From Medakamo hakoo (taxonomy: Eukaryota > Chlorophyta > Trebouxiophyceae > Coccomyxaceae): 64,000 nucleotides of DNA. Position 1 is the first letter of the stretch, and every line of letters begins with the position of its first letter. The translations under genes were made by a program, and so were the position numbers. The DNA lies in assembly GCA_026636295.1 (NCBI GenBank), contig CP089450.1:496001-560000 (forward strand). Reading direction: 5' to 3'. The notes under the pieces are model-generated. The model worked only from the letters and a program-made list of their open reading frames with translations, ran no database searches and was not told the origin of the DNA. This document shows, one piece after another, positions 7,785 to 40,721 of the stretch.

Positions 7785-8492
7785 ATGTCTCGAACCGCCC
7801 TCGTCTTTGGCGGCACGGGCGCGACGGGGTCAGCCCTGGTGCGCGAGCTCGCGGCACGCCCGGAGACCTGGTCCACCGTGCTCGTGCCCGTCCGCGGCGA
7901 GGCCGCACCGCCGGGCCTCGGCGTGCTCGGCCCGGCCGTGCGCGTCCTCCCGCGCACCGACTACGCCGACCTGGCCACGTCCTTGAAGGACGCCCCGCGC
8001 CCCGACGCCGCCTTCATTTGCCTGGGCACCACCCGCGCCGTCGCGGGGTCGGCCGACGCTTTCATTGCCGCCGACCTGACCGCGCCCGCCGCCGCCGCTC
8101 GCTTCGCAGCGGGCGCGGGCGCGGCCCACCTGTCGCTCGTGTCCGCGGCGGGCGCGGCCCGCGGCGGCGCGTGGGCGCCGCGCTCCCGCCTGCTGCACGG
8201 CCTGCTGTACCGTGCCGTGAAGGGCCAGGCGGAAGAAGCCGTCCTGGCCGCGGGCGCGCACTCCACCTCCGTCTTTCGCCCCGGGCTGCTGGAGCGCGGG
8301 CCCGCCTTCTCGTCCGGGCGCCTCCTGGAGCGGGCGGCGTCGGCGGTGCTGCCGGGCTTGCCGGTCGCCGACCTGGCGACGGCCATGGTCTTGGACGCTG
8401 AAGACGCGTTGCAAGCGGCGGGCCGGCGGGCGGGCGAGCGTGTGTTCAGCGACCGCGAGATCCGCAACCTCGCGGCTGGGGGTGGGGGTTGA
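7785..8492 (+). CDS. HTATIP2/TIP30-like NAD(P)-binding reductase
   Basis: Single-exon protein of 235 aa with an atypical short-chain dehydrogenase fold. The N-terminus ALVFGGTGATGSALVREL is the glycine-rich dinucleotide loop. FICLGTTRAVAGSADAF and VSAAGAARG follow, and YRAVKGQAEEAV supplies the YxxxK-like pair. TSVFRPGLLERG is the substrate-side segment typical of the TIP30/HTATIP2 group. The substrate is unknown. The ATG at 7785 is chosen because the upstream in-frame extension would overlap LSM6 exon 1. The 3' end converges on the thioredoxin-like gene. Confidence 0.85.
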   Translation: MSRTALVFGGTGATGSALVRELAARPETWSTVLVPVRGEAAPPGLGVLGPAVRVLPRTDYADLATSLKDAPRPDAAFICLGTTRAVAGSADAFIAADLTAPAAAARFAAGAGAAHLSLVSAAGAARGGAWAPRSRLLHGLLYRAVKGQAEEAVLAAGAHSTSVFRPGLLERGPAFSSGRLLERAASAVLPGLPVADLATAMVLDAEDALQAAGRRAGERVFSDREIRNLAAGGGG

Positions 8493-28046: not shown

Positions 28047-30013
28047 GTCGGCGGCCGCGGCGGACGCGCCGGACCGCCCCGACCCGGCGCGGGAAGGCGA
28101 CGCCAGCGGCGTGATGGACGGCGAGCCGCCCTGGCGCGGCGTGGCCGACCCGGCGGCGGCGGCGGCGGCGGCCGCCGCGCGCGCCGCGTCGCGCGCGCCG
28201 TCCCTGTCCATCGACGCCCGCAGCGCGCCCGCGCCCGCCATGGGCGCGTCCCGCGTGGGTTTGGGCGGCGCCCGCTCGGCGTGGGCCAGCAGCAGGGCGC
28301 CCGCCCCGCCCCCGCCCCCGCCCGCCGCCGCCTGGGCGGCGACCGGGCCCCACACGCCCGCCACGCCCGCCGGGGTGAAGCCCTTGGCCAGCAGAGCCAT
28401 GACGCGCTTGCGGGTCGCGTCCGCCCCCAGGCCCGCCACCAGGCGGGCCGGGCCCAGGGCCGCCAGCAACGGCACTTCGGCCGCGTAGTCAGAGACGGGG
28501 AAGTTGGTGATGACGCGGGACGCCGCGGACGCGGCGGCGGTGGCGGCGGCCGCGGCCGCGGTCGCGGCACTGGACGACGCGCCGCCGCCGCCGCCGCCGC
28601 CGCCCTCACCAGCCCGCGCCGACGCGGCGGCGGCGGCGGCGGCCACAGCTTCCGCCGCCGCCGCCGTCCCCTTGTTGATGGCCGCCCGGTCGTACGCGCG
28701 CGCCGCGTCCTCCTCCGTCCCGTAAAAGCCGAGGTGCACCTGTTTCCCCGCGACATTGATTTGGGAGTGCCACCTCCCCGTCTGTTTGAGCAGTGAGACG
28801 CCGCGGTGGCGGGAGGTTTGCGTGCCGGACTTGCGGGCGCGGGCGCGGAGCATGGCGACGAGTTGCGGGGTGGGCATGGCTGTGGTTTTGTTGGGGGGGG
28901 GGGGGTGCGAGTGGAGGGGGTGTGGGGTTGGCACATGCATGGAAAACAGGAGTGGGGGGAGGCGACAAGGTGTGTGTGTGTGTGTGTGTGTGTGTGGGCG
29001 TGCGCTTTTCCTCCCGCCCGTCCCGCCCACCCATCCCACAAAAAAAACTCACTCGTCAGCTCGGCCAGTTCTTCCGCATACTCGCCGAGTGGAAAATTGG
29101 TCTTGGCGTCGCGGCCGTGCTTGTTGATGGCGGCGCGGTCAAACGCGCGCGCGGCCGCGGCCTCGGTGTCGTGGTCGCCGAGCGACGTGGTTTTCCCGCC
29201 GGCGGAGATCTGTGGGGGGTCGATCGTTTTTTGCGTTGTTGGGTGCGAAAGGGTGCGTGTGAGGAGGGCAGTGCAGCCGGCGCAGAGGCAAAGAAGAAGG
29301 GAACGCTCCCGGGGCGTGATGAGGGGACTGTGGGGGCCGTGTGCAGCAACGCGGGGTGGGGGTGGGTCGCTCGCGCTCGCTGCTGTCAGTCGCGCGTGGG
29401 GGCAAAGCCCCGGCCGCGCCGGCCTCCAGCCGCCACTCGTCGTCCACACCCGCGTCCAAAATTGGCCGCGACAGGCCTCAGCCTTGCGCCAGGGCACGTG
29501 GCACGGACCGCGGGCGGTCGGCGCCGGCCGCAGGAGGAGGGGGTTTGGCCCCGCTCCGCGGCCGCCGTCGAGCGCAGCTAGCCGGAGCCCGGCTTTCTGG
29601 CTCCGCGGGCGTCCCAGGCCGCCCGCCTCACCCTCCCGACGCCCATCAATTCAAAGGCCATCATCCACCCTCTTCCATTCAAAGGGAGGTGGGCCGAGAG
29701 CCGGCGGCGCGGCGCGCGCGAATGCACGGCATTCTGTTCTATGCTGGGAGGCCGGGGTGATGCGAAGGGTTTCGTCCTTCCTTCCCCCGTCCCGGCCCGC
29801 ACCTGTGCCCGCCATCTACCCGACGGCCTGTAGTTTGATAGAGGAGAGTTTGAAGAAGCCGATGCGAGGGGTGTGGGCCAGCGATCGCGCGCGCACGCCC
29901 GTGCCGCGGCCCGGAGAGCCGGCGCTAGGAAGTCAAGACACGGAGGCACAACACACGCACCGAAACAGCGTCACGCCCCGGAAGTTGCTGGATTTCGGGG
30001 GTGCGCCAGCCAT
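27354..30013 (-). CDS. Double-AP2-domain transcription factor
   Basis: Exons 30013-29961, 29827-29803, 29209-29053 and 28879-27354 give 586 aa. AP2 domain 1 (residues 8-75) begins SSNFRGVTLFRPSGRWRAQ and continues ISAGGKTTSLGDHDTEAAAA and FDRAAINKHG; it is assembled from three exons, one only 25 nt. AP2 domain 2 (about 100-150) reads SRHRGVSLLKQTGRWHSQ with VHLGFYGTEEDAARAYDRAA. The remaining ~430 residues are Ala/Gly/Pro-rich with a basic patch (GAKSRSGKRRKPGDG) that may be a nuclear localisation signal. Two AP2 domains place it near the AINTEGUMENTA-type group, DNA-binding in the nucleus. Targets are unknown. Confidence 0.88.
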
Positions 30014-32820: not shown

Positions 32821-34019
32821 TGGGTCCGGCCGCCAGGTCACGCTCGCCCGGTAGGTAGGGTGAGTCGTGCGCTTCGCTCCACAGGGCAGAAAATGGCCGG
32901 ACGAGGGTCACGACGTGACAAGGGCCACGGACGTGCACCCTGGGAGCCAAAAAAAAACGAAAACACGCGCAACAGCCACTGCTTTTGGGCTGCGTGCGGG
33001 CCGTGGCAGGCCCGTCCACGCTCTAGGTACCGGCGCCTGAGAAAGCAGTGACACGATCTCCCTCTGTGGTGAGGGTTGGGCGAGAGACTGCCCGCAGCGC
33101 GCCCAGCGACGGCCCCGCTCTCTCTCTCTGCGCTCTTTCGCTCGCGCAGGGACGGACGGACCAATTGGAGACGGTCCGCCGCCTCCTCACACAGCCTCTC
33201 ACACCACCAATAAAAGAAGAAGAGACGCGCCACTTCAACAAGGGGCGATCTCCAAAACCTCAAGGTACGCGTGGATCGTGTGGACAGAGCATCTGCCCAC
33301 CCAGCCCCAAAGCGATTGGAGGCCGGTTTGGCGGCCGCACGGGCGTGTGCGGGCGCGGAAGGAGGAGGGACGGGCGCGGCCGCGTGCGGCGAGGCGCGTG
33401 CCGAGCCTCCTCGATTTCCGCTGGCCTCCCTCCCGCCCATTGGGCGCGTCACCCCGCCGGGTGACATGAAAGTGGCACAAGGGGTGATGCCGGCGCGGCA
33501 GACCGGGCGCACACCACCCCTGGCGCGCGCCAGGCGCCGGTGTCTGTGTGCGATAGCGCCAGTGGCTTTCGCCGCGTGCGGCGCCCCCCCGTGCCAATTC
33601 CAGCTCCCCGCAGCAACACACCCTACCGCCCGATCCGGTCCCGCTGCCGGCGCGGACGGTGGACACGATGCCGGTCCGGCGTCCCGCGCGGGCTGGAGTG
33701 GGGGTGAAGGCCCGCGCGTCCCTGGCCCGGCTCAGCCCTGTGCCGCGGGCGCGGCAAAGGCGCTGCCTGCACCGTCCGTTGCACCCAGCCGCGCCGCATG
33801 CCCGCGTCCAGGCGCCGGCAGGCGCCCACACCCTCGTCCGACCGGTCAAGGCCAGGACTTGACTCACTCTGGCCCCACACGCATCCACGATCCCACAGGT
33901 TGACGGTGTTTTAGGCCCGCACGGCCCTCAAAACGCCAGAGCCAGACAGCGCGCGCTGCCAACTTCTCTCCACCGCCGCACCACTCGTCCCACACACCTG
34001 AGGTCCGACTCCTCGCGCA
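32821..34019. promoter_or_regulatory. Long divergent spacer of apyrase and secreted acidic protein
   Basis: About 1.2 kb separates the two starts. A palindromic CCAATTGG lies at 33161-33168 and an A-rich CCAATAAAAG at 33207-33216. Open frames on both strands are Arg/Ala-rich without domains, and I do not call them. Upstream non-coding exons of either gene could lie here. Confidence 0.4.
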
Positions 34020-34526
34020 ATGGGTTTCGGCCGCTCCCTGTCCGCCGGCGCCCTGGCCGCCCTGGCGTTGGCCCCCTCGGCCACCAACGCCGTCATCTAC
34101 GGCCCGGAGACGCAGGTGCTGGCGGAACCCCTCACCCGCCGCCGCCTGTCGGCCGCGCTCCTGTCCGCCGCGCCGTCCGAGGCCGCGGCCCGGGACATGC
34201 TGCGCGCCGCGGAAGCCGCCCACGCCGGCGTCGCCGCCGCGTCCATCGACGTGGAAGCGTCCGAGACGTCCTTGCCCGCCGACCGGCGCCGGGCGCTCCT
34301 GGCGGACGCGGCCGCGGCGGTGAGCGAGGGCGGCGGCGCCGTCGCGCCCCACGCCGGCCACGACCGCCGCCTGCTCCAGTCCACGGACGCGCTGGGCGAG
34401 GATGAGGAGGAAGGCGACGAGGAGGGCGGCGAGGACGAGGAGGGCGAGGACGAGGAGGGCGGCGAGGACGAGGAGGGCGCGCGGCGGCGCCGCCGCATGG
34501 CCCGCCGCCTCCTGTCCAGCGCCTGA
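34020..34526 (+). CDS. Secreted acidic protein with repeated dibasic-LL motifs
   Basis: Not recognised as a family. The 168-residue product starts with a signal peptide (MGFGRSLSAGALAALALAPS, likely cut after TNA near residue 24). Arg pairs followed by Leu recur: TRRRLSAALL, DRRRALLADA, DRRLLQST and MARRLLSSA at the C-terminus. They resemble processing sites for a subtilisin-like protease of the secretory route. The C-terminal third is a highly acidic repeat of EDEEGGEDEEGE units directly followed by ARRRRR. It may be a processed precursor or a wall/vesicle protein; the function is unknown. Confidence 0.65.
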   Translation: MGFGRSLSAGALAALALAPSATNAVIYGPETQVLAEPLTRRRLSAALLSAAPSEAAARDMLRAAEAAHAGVAAASIDVEASETSLPADRRRALLADAAAAVSEGGGAVAPHAGHDRRLLQSTDALGEDEEEGDEEGGEDEEGEDEEGGEDEEGARRRRRMARRLLSSA

Positions 34527-34803
34527 TGAGACGAGTGGAATGAGGCGTGACTAAAAGAAAAAAGCAGAGAGTGGTTGGAGAGCGTCCTTTCCCCCCAAGC
34601 AGTGCGAAAAACCAAAACCCGCACGCTTCGGCGTTTTTTCTTCATACCCCGCCCCCTTTTTACGACGTAGATTCCCCCATGGATTGATGTCCCCCATTTC
34701 TAACGAGCTGATGTAAAAAAGAGAGACGAGCGCTTTTTTTGAGACGGAACAAACTAAGAAACACAGTCAACAGAAAAAAACTTCAACTCTCCCCAATCTC
34801 CCC

Positions 34804-37158
34804 TCACTCCCACGGCCGGGGCGGCGCCTCCGCGTCAGGCGTGGGCGACGGCGGCGGCGGCGACCGCGGCCGGCGCTGCCGAGGCGGGTCCGAGGCCGGC
34901 GCGGCGGCGGTGCCAGAGGGGCTGCCGAACCAGCGGGCGATCTGGAGCACGGGGTCCAAGCGCACGTCGCGCGCGTCGGCCGTCCCGCCCGACCCATCAT
35001 CCTCAACCCAGGCCGAGGGCGGCGTCAAGGGCGAGGAGACTTTGGTCGAGGGCTGGGAGCGAGGCGAGGGCGGCGGCGGAGGGGCGGACGGCTCGGGCGC
35101 GCCCCCGCCGCCCCCGCCCCCAAGCACCAGGCCGCCCCACCCGCGCCGCCCGCCGGGGAGGCCAGCCGCCAGCTCCGCCAGCCGGCTGTAGCTTGGCCGG
35201 GCCGGGTCGACCCCAATCAGGCTGGCCCCCCGCCCGTTGGGCCACAGGGCGTGCGTCTGCCAGGGCCCGCCCGCGGCGTGGAAGACGCGCAGGTCCAGGC
35301 CCCGCACGCGCACGCGCTGCACGACGAACGCGGGCGGGGAGAAGGCGCCCACCCAGGCTTCCGCCTCGCGCGCCGACCGCCCCAGGCCAAAGTCGGACAC
35401 CAGGTTGGCCCGGCCGGCCCCCGGCGCGGCGGGGTCGCCCCACTGCGGGTTGAAGACGAGCAGCGGGCGGGCGGGGGCCTCGGCCGCGAGCGCGCGCAGG
35501 CGGGGCACCGCCTCGGGCGTGGGCTGGAGCAGGGCGGCCAGGCGGTCGCCCACCCACTCGCACACCAGGTCGTCCCTGTCCACCCAGGCCATGGACAGGC
35601 GGCCCTTCAGGGCCGGGTGCGCCTTCACGGCCCGGAGCGTGGCCTCGGCCAGCGCGCGCGCGGCGGCAAAGCGCGCGGTCGCGCTCCCTTCCGCGCCCGG
35701 CACGCGCCCGCCCGCCGCGTCCTCCTCGTCCGGGAGCGGGAAGTCGACGCGCAGGAGCAGGCGGCCGTCTGCCTGCCAGGCGCGCAGGATGGCGTCGGCG
35801 GCGGCGGCGGCCATGGCCTCGCCCGTCAGCGGCAGCGGCGCGGCGAGCGCGGTCGGCGGCGGCGGGAAGTTTAGCCGGGCGGCCGTCGCGGGCGTGGCGC
35901 CGTTGATCTCCAGCAGCGCCGCATCGTGCGCGCGCGCCGCGTCTTCCTCATCCTCGAAGAAGCCGAGGAAGCGCACCCGCTGCGCCGCCGCGTCCCAGAC
36001 CTGGGCGCGCCAGACCGCGGGCGCGGGCGTGGCCGCCGCCGCGCCGCTGGCGGCCGCGACGGCCGCGGCCGCGGCGCCGCCGCCGCGGTCCGTGCGCAGG
36101 GACACGCCACGGAAGCGGGACGTGTTGCTGGACCGGGACGCGATGGGCGACGGCTTGGACGGCGCCAGCCCGACGGCGAGGGCCGCGGCCCGCCGCGCTT
36201 TGTGGGCCGCGCGCTCGGCCGCGGCCGCGTCCGGCTTGACTGGGCACCGCAGCCGGTTGTGCCCCCGCCCGCCGCACAGGCCGCACCGCCACACGCGGCC
36301 GGACCGGGGTTCGGACGCGGCCAGGCGGGAGGCGATGTCGACGAGGGCCGCGCGGTCGCGCTGCCTAGACGGGGTCGGCGGCGCGGCCGCGCGCGGTGGT
36401 GGGGGAGCGGTGGCCGAGGGCGCCGAGGTGGAGGGCCCGCCGCCCTCGCCGGCCGCCTCGTCTTCGTCGGACGACGAGGAGGAGGAGACTGGCTCTTCGG
36501 GCGGCACGACCACGCGCCGGCCACGCCGCCCAGAGCGCGCGGCGGCGAGGCTGTCGAGCAGTGCCGCGGGCGTTTCGGCAGAGGGCGGCGGGGCGGCCGT
36601 GCCGGGCGATGCCGCGGCGGCGGGCGGCGCGGCTGGACGGCGGGCCAGCCGTGGCGGTGGTGGAGACGTGTCGTGGTGCGGCCGGCTGGTGCCGGGCGGG
36701 ACCGCGGCGGGCGGGCGGGGCTGGCGAGTGGAGAGGGGGGGAGGTGGGATGGCCGGGGAGAGGGTGAGGTTTTGTGCCGGCCGCGAAAAAAAAAAATCGG
36801 CGGCCGGGCGGGGGCGGCAGCGGGCGGCCTGGGGTTTGTTCGCTTTCTCCGGGCGCACCGGTGGCTCAAGCGTGGGCCTGCACGGGAGGATGGGCGGTGC
36901 AGTGCCGTTCCAAGCCCGTGCGGCGGCGCGCGCGATTCGGGCGGGCGGGGCCGCGACACCGCCAAGCGGGGCCCCCCGACACCGGTCCGTCGGTGGGTCT
37001 CTTTTGGACGGCGAGTCGGTCGCGGCACGCGGGACTCGTACACGCACCTGCCGCTCAGCCGGTCGTGCGCCCGGTCGCCGCGGTGCCGCACTGGCCAGGC
37101 GCGCCGCCGGCCCGGCCGACGCAGCGGCCGCGGCGGGCAAGCGGTGCGGGCCCGCCAT
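34804..37158 (-). CDS. CCHC zinc knuckle - AP2 - DUF1995 fusion protein
   Basis: Predicted 675 aa from exons 37158-37048 and 36720-34804. The N-terminus (MAGPHRLPAAAAASAGPAAR) resembles a plastid transit peptide. A Ser/Asp/Glu-rich stretch follows. WRCGLCGGRGHNRLRC (about 179-194) is a CX2CX4HX4C zinc knuckle. An AP2 domain (about 235-312) starts SRFRGVSLR, carries an Ala-rich insert, and continues VWRAQVWDAAAQRVRFLGFF with EEDAARAHDAALLEING. The C-terminal DUF1995 (about 337-567) has LLLRVDFPLP, DRDDLVCEWVGDRLAALLQP, LVFNPQWGD, NLVSDFGLG and RPSYSRLAEL. DUF1995 is usually a stand-alone plastid domain (e.g. LPA3). The tail is disordered. The intron is 327 nt and stop-free, so retention would give 784 aa. 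Confidence 0.8.
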   Translation of the reverse strand: MAGPHRLPAAAAASAGPAARLASAAPRRPGARPAERQVRVRVPRAATDSPSKRDPPTDRCRGAPLGGVAAPPARIARAAARAWNGTAPPILPCRPTLEPPVRPEKANKPQAARCRPRPAADFFFSRPAQNLTLSPAIPPPPLSTRQPRPPAAVPPGTSRPHHDTSPPPPRLARRPAAPPAAAASPGTAAPPPSAETPAALLDSLAAARSGRRGRRVVVPPEEPVSSSSSSDEDEAAGEGGGPSTSAPSATAPPPPRAAAPPTPSRQRDRAALVDIASRLAASEPRSGRVWRCGLCGGRGHNRLRCPVKPDAAAAERAAHKARRAAALAVGLAPSKPSPIASRSSNTSRFRGVSLRTDRGGGAAAAAVAAASGAAAATPAPAVWRAQVWDAAAQRVRFLGFFEDEEDAARAHDAALLEINGATPATAARLNFPPPPTALAAPLPLTGEAMAAAAADAILRAWQADGRLLLRVDFPLPDEEDAAGGRVPGAEGSATARFAAARALAEATLRAVKAHPALKGRLSMAWVDRDDLVCEWVGDRLAALLQPTPEAVPRLRALAAEAPARPLLVFNPQWGDPAAPGAGRANLVSDFGLGRSAREAEAWVGAFSPPAFVVQRVRVRGLDLRVFHAAGGPWQTHALWPNGRGASLIGVDPARPSYSRLAELAAGLPGGRRGWGGLVLGGGGGGGAPEPSAPPPPPSPRSQPSTKVSSPLTPPSAWVEDDGSGGTADARDVRLDPVLQIARWFGSPSGTAAAPASDPPRQRRPRSPPPPSPTPDAEAPPRPWE

Positions 37159-37544
37159 TCGCGCGCTGCGGGCGAGCGAGCGCGGGGCGAGCCCCTGTCG
37201 GAGACGGACAGAGGCGTCCCTCCCCGCGGGCCGATCGGTGCTGTGACTGAGGCCTTGGCGCTCACGCGCGGAGCGTCGCGGCCGGGGTCATGGAAGGAGG
37301 TGGGCGCACACCCCGCTCGCAGAGAGAGGCTGTGAGGGTGCGCGTCGAGGCTCCTGTGTGAGACGGGGGGCGGTGTGGCGCGCCGCTCTTACATCCCGAG
37401 CACCGCGCCCCACGCCCACCCCCCTCTCTGTCCGCCCCAGCGGCTCTCTTGTCTTCCACTCTTTTCCTCCCACAAACAAAGGCTCAGCACAGGAGCGCGC
37501 CCCGCACGCACGCGACCCAGACGGCCCCCGCGCGCGCGCGCGCC
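37159..37544. other. Spacer between eS10 3' end and AP2-DUF1995 gene start
   Basis: This 386-bp stretch should hold the AP2-DUF1995 promoter and the eS10 3' UTR. It ends in an alternating CG run near 37530-37541. No coding exon was recognised. Confidence 0.4.
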
Positions 37545-38334
37545 TCACGACGGCGGCGCGCCGCCGCCACGGCCGAAGGACGGGCGGTACCCGGCGGGCG
37601 CGCCCTCCTTGCCCTCGCCGCCGCCGCCGCGGCCGAACCCGCCGCGCGGGCCGTCGCGGTAGCCGCCGCGGTCGCCGCCGCCGAAGCCGGACCCGCGCGG
37701 CGGGCGGTCGCCGCGCGGCTCGCGCTCGCCGCCGCGCTCCAGGGCGCGCGTCGACTTTTTCAGCGTGGCGGGGACAATCTCCGCCGGCAGGTTCAGCACC
37801 TCGCGCAGGTGTTCGATGCCCTCGTCCGTCAGGAACCAGTAGTAGTGGCGCCAGGCGAAGCGTTCCGTGACCAGTTCCTTGGACTTGAAGGACTGCATGA
37901 GCTTGATGACCTGGGGAATGGAGGGGGGGGGGGGGGGGGCGGCGGTGAGAAAAACATGGATGGAGAGGGAGGGGGCGGGTGCGGGCGAGGGGGGGAGAGG
38001 GATCGGTCCACCGTTCCTCCGCCTCCGCCCCCCACCCCACCCCCTCTTACCTGCAGGTTGGGCACGCCCGGGATCTCCGGGTGTTCGGCCAGGGTGAAGT
38101 CCTTCTCAGCGAACAGGACGCCCTCTGTTGTTTGTGGTGGGGTGGGCGTGGCGGGGCGGCGTGAGCACGGCGGGAGAGGGAGAGGGTGGGCCGCCGTTTT
38201 TTACGCGCGCAGCAATCAGGGGCGGGGCCACCGGCCGCACGCCACCCTTCCCCCCCTCGCCCCCACACCACCGCCCTCTTACCCTTGAACAGGTGCTTGT
38301 ACACGTCGCGGCGGTTCTTCTTGGGGATGAGCAT
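37545..38334 (-). CDS. RPS10: 40S ribosomal protein eS10
   Basis: Exons 38334-38283, 38124-38051 and 37910-37545 (both donors GTAAGA, the more standard plant type) give 163 aa. The sequence starts [20 protein letters not shown] and continues [40 protein letters not shown] and [20 protein letters not shown], the winged-helix body of eS10. The C-terminal tail is Arg/Gly-rich, as is normal for the family, and ends [13 protein letters not shown]. It acts in the small subunit head. It is divergent from the ribosome-biogenesis gene PPAN. Intron 2 goes from a G-rich 5' part to a C-rich 3' part. Confidence 0.97.
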
Positions 38335-38824
38335 GGCTGCTTGAGTTTTGTTGGTGTTCGGAGAACGAAAGAAACAACGAGTTGCTTTTGGGGGGGGGAG
38401 AACTCAAAAACGCGTCAGCTCTGGGCTAACTCTGTTGTGTTTTGGGGCGGGGAGGCCGTGGGCGAGCGTCAGAGGGATGGACCGCGGCGGTGGGAAGGGG
38501 CGGGAGAGGCGGAGAAGCGGCGGCAGCGCGGGCGGCAGCGTGTGCCCAGCGCGCCGCCGCCTCGCGCCTGGTTTGGCCCTTCCTCCCCCCTCGCGGCAAG
38601 GCCGCGCCGGGGGCCGAACCTCCGTCCAACCCCGCAGGACTCAAGCTCGGGCAGTGATTCAGGCCCTCGCATTGTCCACAGGCCCAACAACTGACCGTCT
38701 CCCGGGATTGTCGCAGGTTTTGTGAGAACAAAAGTGTGACGGGAGGGAGAGAGTCGCGGGGAGCGCCCGGCTGCGTGCCCACATTTCTTTTCCGCGCTCG
38801 CCGTCCACACGCAGCAACGATACG
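38335..38824. promoter_or_regulatory. Shared upstream region of RPS10 and PPAN genes
   Basis: 490 bp separate the two start codons. Both products serve ribosome production, so joint regulation from this spacer is plausible. I saw no TATA box or clear repeated element, only pyrimidine/purine-rich stretches. Confidence 0.45.
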
Positions 38825-40721
38825 ATGGCACGCACCAAGCGGGTGCGTCCGAGCCTCCTCTCACAGGCAGCTGTGTCCTCTGCGCTTGCACCACGCTGCC
38901 CTGAACGAGCAGCTGTGACCCCGGCCCGCTGCAGCACGGCGGAAAACTCAACGCGGCCGCCGCTCCTATTCTCACGCCGTTCCGCCGCCCCTCCCCACTC
39001 TCACACATCCACTCAGCGCAAGAAGCGGACTCACGTGGCCGACGGCCCGGAAGCGTCCAAGGGCCCCAAAACCTTTGTGTTTTGGCGCGGGCGGCACGGG
39101 GTGAGTGTCTGTCCGTGTTCTCTTTTCGCGTCTCCACACACGCATGCGCCCCAACCTAGCCGCCATCAAAAGCAAAACTCTCACCTCGGGGGCCCCGCCG
39201 TCAACGGCCATGGATGACACACACACAGCCCCTGATGAAGCCGCTGGAAGGCGACCTGCGCCGCATGATGTCGCCCAACACAGCGACGAGGCTGAAGGTG
39301 AGGGAGGGCGGGGAGGGCGGGGTGGCGTGCGGGCCCCCAGCAGGAGGTCGTCCCCCCCGTCCCCCACACGCCTCAACCCCCCCTCTCCCCCGGGCCATCC
39401 CATTTTTTTTCCATCCACCACACAGGAGTCCAAGCGCAACTCGCTCCGCGACTTTGTCGACTTGGCGGGGCCCCTGGGCGTCACCCACTTCTTCATCCTG
39501 ACCGCCACCAGCAGCGCGTCCTACCTCCGCGTCGCGCGCGCGCCCCGCGGGCCCACGCTCGCCCTGAAAATCGCCTCCTACGCGCTCATGCGGGACGTGC
39601 TGTCGTCCCAAGCCCGGCCGCGCGCGCCGCCGTCCGCCTGGGCCAGCCCGCCGCTGGTGGTGCTGCACAACTTTCCGTCGTCGTCTGGCGGCGCCAGCCC
39701 CCTGAGCGCCGGCGGCGCGCCCGCCCCCACGCCGGCCGTGGGCGGCGGCTCCCCCGACGCGGCCGCGGCGCTCGCGGCCGAACTCTTCCGGTCCGCCTTC
39801 CCGCCCATCGACGTGCGCACGGCGCGGCTGGCGTCCTGCAAACGTGTTGTGCTGCTGTCGTATGAAGGCGGGGGCAAGCTGAGCCTGCGCCACTACTCCA
39901 TCTCCGCCCGGCCCGCCGGCGTGTCGCCGGGCGTGCGCGCGCTGGTCGCGCGCCGCGCGCTCCCGCCCGGCGCGGGCGCCGCCGCGGACGTCGCCGACCT
40001 GCTGGCCGCCGGCTCGGAGTCCGAGGGCGAGCCCGACACCAAGGTCACGCTCGCGTCGCCCCTGGCCCGGGCGGGCGGCGCGGGCGGGGCCGCCCGCGTC
40101 CGCGTCCACGAGCTGGGGCCGCGCCTGGACTGCGAGCTCGTCAAGGCGGAAGCCGGCCTGTGCGGCGGGTCCGTCCTGTTCCACGCGCACGAGGCCCGGT
40201 CGGCGCGGGAGGTGGCGGCCGGCGAGGCGGCTGTCAAGGACGCGGAGCGGGCGCGGGCGGCCCGGCGGGCGGCGCAGGAGGCAAACGTGGCGCGGAAGCG
40301 GGCGGCGGCCGCGCGCGCGGGCGCGGACGCGGCCGCGGCGGCCAAGGGGGGCGGCGGGCGCGGCGGCGGCCCGCAGCGCAAAAAACAGTGGTGGGAGCTG
40401 GAAGCGGACGACGCGGAGGCGGCGGCCGCCAGGGCTGCGGCGGACGACGACGTGGCCGAGTACGAACGCCAGGTCGGCGAGGCGCCGGAGAGCACGGCCG
40501 GGCTGACCCGGGCGGGCGGCGGCCGTGGCGGGCGGGGCGGCGGCGGGCGGGGCGGCGGTGGGCGGGGCGGTGGGCGTGGCGGCGGCGGCCGCGGCCGTGG
40601 GCGTGGCCCTGCTCCTTCCGCTGCCGCCTCCCCGCCGCGCAAGCGGGCAGCGTCCGTGGGCGGCCGTGGCGGAGGAGGCCGCGGCCGGGGTGGTGGGGCG
40701 GCCAAGCGCGGGCGGACATGA
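38825..40721 (+). CDS. PPAN: Peter Pan/Ssf-type Brix-domain ribosome biogenesis factor
   Basis: Nucleolar factor for 27S pre-rRNA processing in 60S assembly. Exons 38825-38842 (18 nt), 39017-39100, 39229-39297 and 39426-40721, all phase 0, give 488 aa. The N-terminus MARTKRRKKRTHV precedes a Brix domain with PKTFVFWRGRHG, LEGDLRRMMSPNTATRLK, KRNSLRDFVDLAGPLGVTHF and PRGPTLALKIASYALMRDVL. The second half carries KLSLRHYSISARP and ELGPRLDCELVKAEAGLCGG. The last ~50 residues form a GAR tract of RGG/GGRG repeats, which is common in nucleolar RNA-binding proteins but less so in PPAN itself. Donors are GTGCGT, GTGAGT and GTGAGG. Confidence 0.93.

Follow-up and report, generated by a model that had tools for sequence, protein, structure and literature searches.

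What might a protein do that carries a zinc knuckle, an AP2-like domain and a full-length DUF1995 in one reading frame? The question is raised by a gene on the minus strand of the window, a 64,000-nucleotide stretch of the Medakamo hakoo genome (contig C3, positions 496001-560000), in which a frame without stops runs from 37287 to 34804 and encodes 827 residues. A sequence-only reading of this DNA had proposed such a build behind an exon resembling a transit peptide; the fused frame, the order of the domains and the full-length DUF1995 are confirmed, whereas the AP2 domain and the knuckle lie below Pfam cut-offs and the transit peptide did not hold up. The fusion is conserved in five sequences, and the explanation judged best, with a probability of roughly one half, is that it is a lineage-specific green-algal plastid factor that would bind nucleic acid and serve photosynthesis.

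The fused frame and its domains

Open frames carry little weight where the GC content is as high as in M. hakoo (72.7% over 16 chromosomes; PMC9871001, cited, like the other papers below, from partial text), and independent signs were therefore sought. The main exon (34804..36720, minus strand, as are all features of the gene) lies between a candidate acceptor AG at 36722-36721 and the stop TGA at 34806-34804, has a G+C content at third codon positions (GC3) of 0.93, and is homologous to four database proteins, P0001 to P0004. Its domains follow one another in a single frame, as had been proposed.

The zinc knuckle (36244..36285), CGLCGGRGHNRLRC, has the spacing CX2CX4HX4C, and its C, C, H and C are invariant in all five proteins. 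The family profile matches the TUT7 zinc knuckles (E 2.7e-4). No Pfam knuckle model exceeds its cut-off: zf-CCHC_6 reaches 11 of 22 bits in the window protein, and the best homologue, P0003, which has two knuckles to the window protein's one, is also under threshold (zf-CCHC_2, 23.2 of 27 bits; zf-CCHC, 19.7 of 20.8). Knuckles of the form GHNxRTCP occur in plant MYB proteins.

The AP2-like domain (35863..36123) reads SRFRGVS ... WRAQVWD ... RFLGFFEDEEDAARAHDAAL ... LNFP and was recognised from the alignment, the predicted structure and the family profile. Invariant in five of five proteins are RGV in strand 1, WR-Q-WD in strand 2, DE--AARA-DAA in the helix, and LNFP, and the predicted fold, in which a single helix packs against a sheet of three strands, is that of AP2/ERF domains. 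In the five-protein alignment the window protein, P0001 and P0002 have an insert of at least 20 residues that separates strand 1 from strand 2 and lies, in the window protein, within an Ala/Gly-rich stretch (36013..36093); the domain is uninterrupted in P0003 and P0004. Pfam AP2 (PF00847, curated cut-off 33.3 bits) was absent from the window protein at E <= 1, and the fusion gene was not among the 20 matches of a genome-wide scan with that profile, likely because of this insert. All four homologues also score below the cut-off (14.4, 17.2, 26.2 and 13.3 bits); the precomputed annotation of P0003 lists Pfam AP2 together with DUF1995. Because the cut-off is reached neither in the window protein nor in its homologues, the domain is called AP2-like and not a canonical AP2/ERF factor.

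DUF1995 (PF09353; 35176..35832, residues 486-704 of the open frame) follows after a linker of about 10 residues; Pfam scores it at 64.3 bits, well over the cut-off of 26, and the match is full-length, over profile positions 1-196 of 197. Near the C-terminus stands a further conserved motif (34930..34971), RDVRLDPVLQIARW, in which R-D-V-R, D-P-V and A-R-W are invariant in five of five proteins. It includes a predicted helix, residues 462-471, in a region of the model with a predicted local distance difference test (pLDDT) score below 50, and may, from a comparison by eye, correspond to the helix with which cyanobacterial DUF1995 proteins end.

Relatives and origin of the fusion

Three homology searches returned at least four database proteins with the same build. 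Each search scored the 7,992-7,998 candidates with the most words in common, and since Ala-rich words probably fill that list, the family may well exceed five. Identity to the query is 64% over 79% for P0001, 48% over 92% for P0002 and 38% over 97% for P0003, and P0004 is 71% identical to P0003 across the region searched. All four carry knuckle, AP2-like domain, DUF1995 and RDVRxDPVxxxARW in this order in one frame. P0004 has in addition a NUMOD3-like motif N-terminal of its knuckle; NUMOD3 (PF07460) gave 17.1 bits (E 0.0053) on an 89-residue excerpt, short of the 20.4-bit cut-off, and was not reported for the whole protein at E <= 10. NUMOD3 is otherwise known as a homing-endonuclease module. 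Two separate proteins of the M. hakoo nuclear genome also match it, one at C6:1157169 above the cut-off (27.1 bits) and one at C6:444781 below it (15.2 bits), the latter with several look-alike repeats by eye. Viral contigs yielded no relative, and none of three proteins matched NCBIfam.

Within the 15,638,232 bases and 16 contigs of the genome, the build appears to be single as far as it was searched. When the knuckle-AP2 stretch was used as query, 12 matches came back, of which only the window gene spanned the full query; a match at C1:272516-272869 (E 0.002) covers residues 9-130 of the query and contains two stops. A same-frame CX2CX4HX4C was found at none of the 20 other AP2 loci, searched within about 3 kb. 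One of the genome's other AP2 domains lies in the window itself, some 6 kb away from the fusion gene (28671-28814, minus strand, 37.6 bits and over the cut-off, in a 564-residue frame), and no zinc knuckle occurs in its frame. A single open frame of 1837 residues at C2:1176361-1178772 has an unusual multi-AP2 layout, with four matches in the AP2 scan and more in the knuckle-AP2 search.

A profile scan found six DUF1995 loci in the genome, and a tree was built of 19 domains: the five fusions, five paralogues from this genome and nine of 33 cyanobacterial rows. The fusions and the stand-alone paralogue L006 (C6:908996-909679), the nearest to the fusion's domain, group together at 100/98, and the five fusions stand apart from L006 at 83/88. 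L006 and L003 sit on long branches, P0001 and P0002 have odd composition, and the deeper joins are unsure. The simplest reading of this topology would be a single fusion event followed by conservation; a position of L006 within the fusion group is not firmly excluded, as 83/88 leaves that fork open. L006 offers a natural control for the contribution of the AP2 part. For the DUF1995 domain that we labelled LPA3-like (L001), a scan of genome contigs found no relative.

The expectation that DUF1995 usually stands alone holds in the comparison sets. In a cyanobacterial phylum it occurs in 63 of 146 genomes (83 are without it), with one match each and in open frames of 211-321 residues, too short to be this fusion. 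Among 13 of the 33 cyanobacterial loci whose neighbours were compared, no neighbouring frame was common to all. At three of the 13 (L135, L138 and L139) a GDVHGHY frame, phosphoesterase-like by eye, lies downstream of DUF1995; upstream, L138 and L139 have a further frame in common, cysteine-desulfurase-like by eye. An adenylate-kinase fusion of DUF1995 exists in a plant protein; such a fusion was sought in this genome and rejected, none of five adenylate-kinase matches lying near the six DUF1995 loci.

The 5' end of the gene and its neighbours

The start of the gene is less clear than its body. Codon-position GC and GC3 take on a coding signal only between about 36,650 and 36,350. From the stop of the upstream gene to the DUF1995 part, the ATG at 37158 is the single minus-strand ATG that opens into the fusion frame; the others lead to frames of 2, 10, 27 and 18 codons including the stop, apart from an in-frame ATG at 35814 inside DUF1995 itself. 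The proposed first exon (37048..37158; MAGPHRLP...AERQ, donor GTGCGT) would be joined to the main exon across an intron of 327 bases (36721..37047; GTGCGT...CGCCAG, with a T run inside) that is stop-free in frame and flat in GC by codon position (0.73/0.71/0.74). The spliced model of 675 residues translates cleanly. A possible alternative first exon is a frame that starts at ATG 37291 and ends at GTGAGC, a candidate donor.

The sequence-only reading saw in this exon the look of a transit peptide, a claim that is not borne out. Its GC3 is 0.811, against at least 0.838 in every one of 555 overlapping 37-codon windows drawn from 36579-34804. Over its first 60 positions the spliced model has 2 acidic residues and 46 of A, R, P, S or T, a composition equalled or exceeded in 314 of the 3857 stop-free 60-mers in the six frames of the window. 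The transit peptide was therefore discarded as evidence for targeting. The exon is unproven rather than excluded, because codon bias may be weaker in a leader.

Upstream lies a gene with a Plectin/S10 domain (eS10-type), whose frame ends at 37545, and near it on the plus strand a frame with a Brix domain of ribosome-biogenesis type (39105-40721, 85.7 bits). Convergent with the 3' end of the fusion gene is a small plus-strand frame (34002-34526) whose start looks signal-like by eye and which contains a long repeat of Glu, Asp and Gly; Pfam gave no match for it.

Site of action and comparison with known systems

The literature on DUF1995 points towards photosynthesis. Chlamydomonas mutants in LPA3 and Cre06.g281800 indicate that these DUF1995 proteins are required for photosystem II (PMC8448359, which also records the retraction of the original report on LPA3 in Arabidopsis), the DUF1995 protein LSAR4 is tied to photosynthesis (PMC9110296), diatom DUF1995 proteins are chloroplast-targeted (PMC7596299), and Prototheca is without DUF1995 (PMC11302234). 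The assumption that AP2 domains act in nuclear transcription proved too narrow, as the rice AP2/ERF protein OsEREBP1 has been observed at plastid nucleoids (PMC4452794). It is because of these ties to photosynthesis and this nucleoid precedent that a plastid factor is preferred to a nuclear regulator or to a scaffold with an inactive AP2 fold. One plausible scenario is that a DUF1995 of photosystem-biogenesis type gained a front end of zinc knuckle and AP2-like fold, joined in one relative by a NUMOD3-like motif, which we infer to bind nucleic acid. The protein would be imported into the plastid, where knuckle and AP2 fold would anchor it to plastid DNA or transcripts, perhaps at the nucleoid, and DUF1995 would touch assembly intermediates or the thylakoid, with the result that a photosystem component would be expressed, or undergo its early assembly, in one place. 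More tentatively, the protein might be a one-molecule coupler, in which the AP2/knuckle part reads plastid DNA or RNA and DUF1995 joins photosystem assembly, so that plastid gene expression would respond directly to the state of assembly; if dual-located, the protein would also report that state to the nucleus. We know of no biochemical activity of DUF1995 proteins. A conserved natural fusion hints that a DUF1995 branch acts close to nucleic acids of the plastid (or the nucleus), and it offers a direct, testable handle on DUF1995 function and a candidate link of plastid state to gene control.

Several observations weigh against a plastid factor. A table of predicted locations gives LPA3 as 'O' (other) and Cre06.g281800 as 'C' (PMC8448359). 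Exon 1, the putative import signal, lacks a coding signal, and its composition is ordinary here. A Ser/Asp/Glu run, SSSSSSDEDEAAGEG, stands before the zinc knuckle of the window protein and looks, in our judgement, more typical of a nuclear protein. The residues that contact the GCC box in ERFs appear, as we take it, largely changed in the window domain.

Some of these points fit a nuclear transcription regulator, in which knuckle and AP2 fold would sit on nuclear DNA and DUF1995, no longer in the plastid, would have an oligomerising or sensing role, perhaps as part of plastid-to-nucleus signalling. AP2 proteins are nuclear as a rule, the predicted fold is of AP2 type, the acidic run has a parallel in P0004, where an acidic stretch precedes the NUMOD3-like motif, and a transit peptide is unsupported. 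Such a role is possible but doubtful: the DUF1995 proteins of the literature are photosynthetic, chloroplast-targeted or cyanobacterial, the one tabulated LPA3 prediction aside, and we know of no nuclear DUF1995. It is improbable that the AP2-like part has, through its insert and apparently changed contact residues, ceased to bind DNA and is a scaffold, with DUF1995, and perhaps a knuckle that binds RNA, doing the work of the protein; the insert in three of five members and the blindness of Pfam to the window's AP2 speak for it, but the invariance of the strand, helix and LNFP motifs and the uninterrupted domain in P0003 and P0004 speak against it. That two genes or transcripts were misread as one, in a GC-rich genome where long chance frames are common (56 stop-to-stop frames of at least 80 residues overlap 33000-39500), is very improbable given the same one-frame fusion in four homologues, a GC3 of 0.95-0.98 across the AP2-DUF1995 junction and the short linker.

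In open-licence PMC papers no description was found of a protein with this build, in agreement with the sequence-only reading, and none was found joining NUMOD3 with AP2, an AP2 domain and zinc knuckle with the green-algal chloroplast, or Chlamydomonas LPA3 with adenylate kinase; the main text of the M. hakoo genome paper (PMC9871001) mentions neither AP2 nor DUF1995. AP2 and DUF1995 are both mentioned in PMC8448359, and DUF1995 without AP2 in PMC7596299. The parts of the fusion protein have known counterparts. Its knuckle resembles the CCHC knuckles of TUT7 and nucleocapsid in spacing and, for TUT7, in profile, and differs in lying below the Pfam cut-offs; its AP2-like domain differs from the AP2/ERF domains of AtERF1, WRI1 and TEM1 by the loop insert, by contact residues that appear mostly changed, and by the lack of a Pfam match over the cut-off. 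OsEREBP1 is an AP2-type protein observed in the plastid and, like the fusion protein, has no clear chloroplast signal; it differs in that the partial text of PMC4452794 mentions neither DUF1995 nor a zinc knuckle. With Chlamydomonas LPA3/CPLD28, LSAR4 (Cre06.g281800) and cyanobacterial DUF1995 the fusion protein shares a full-length domain that has, by eye, the family motifs, but where DUF1995 stands alone in the comparison sets, here zinc knuckle and AP2-like domain precede it, a conserved combination of known parts that is, within the reach of these searches, new.
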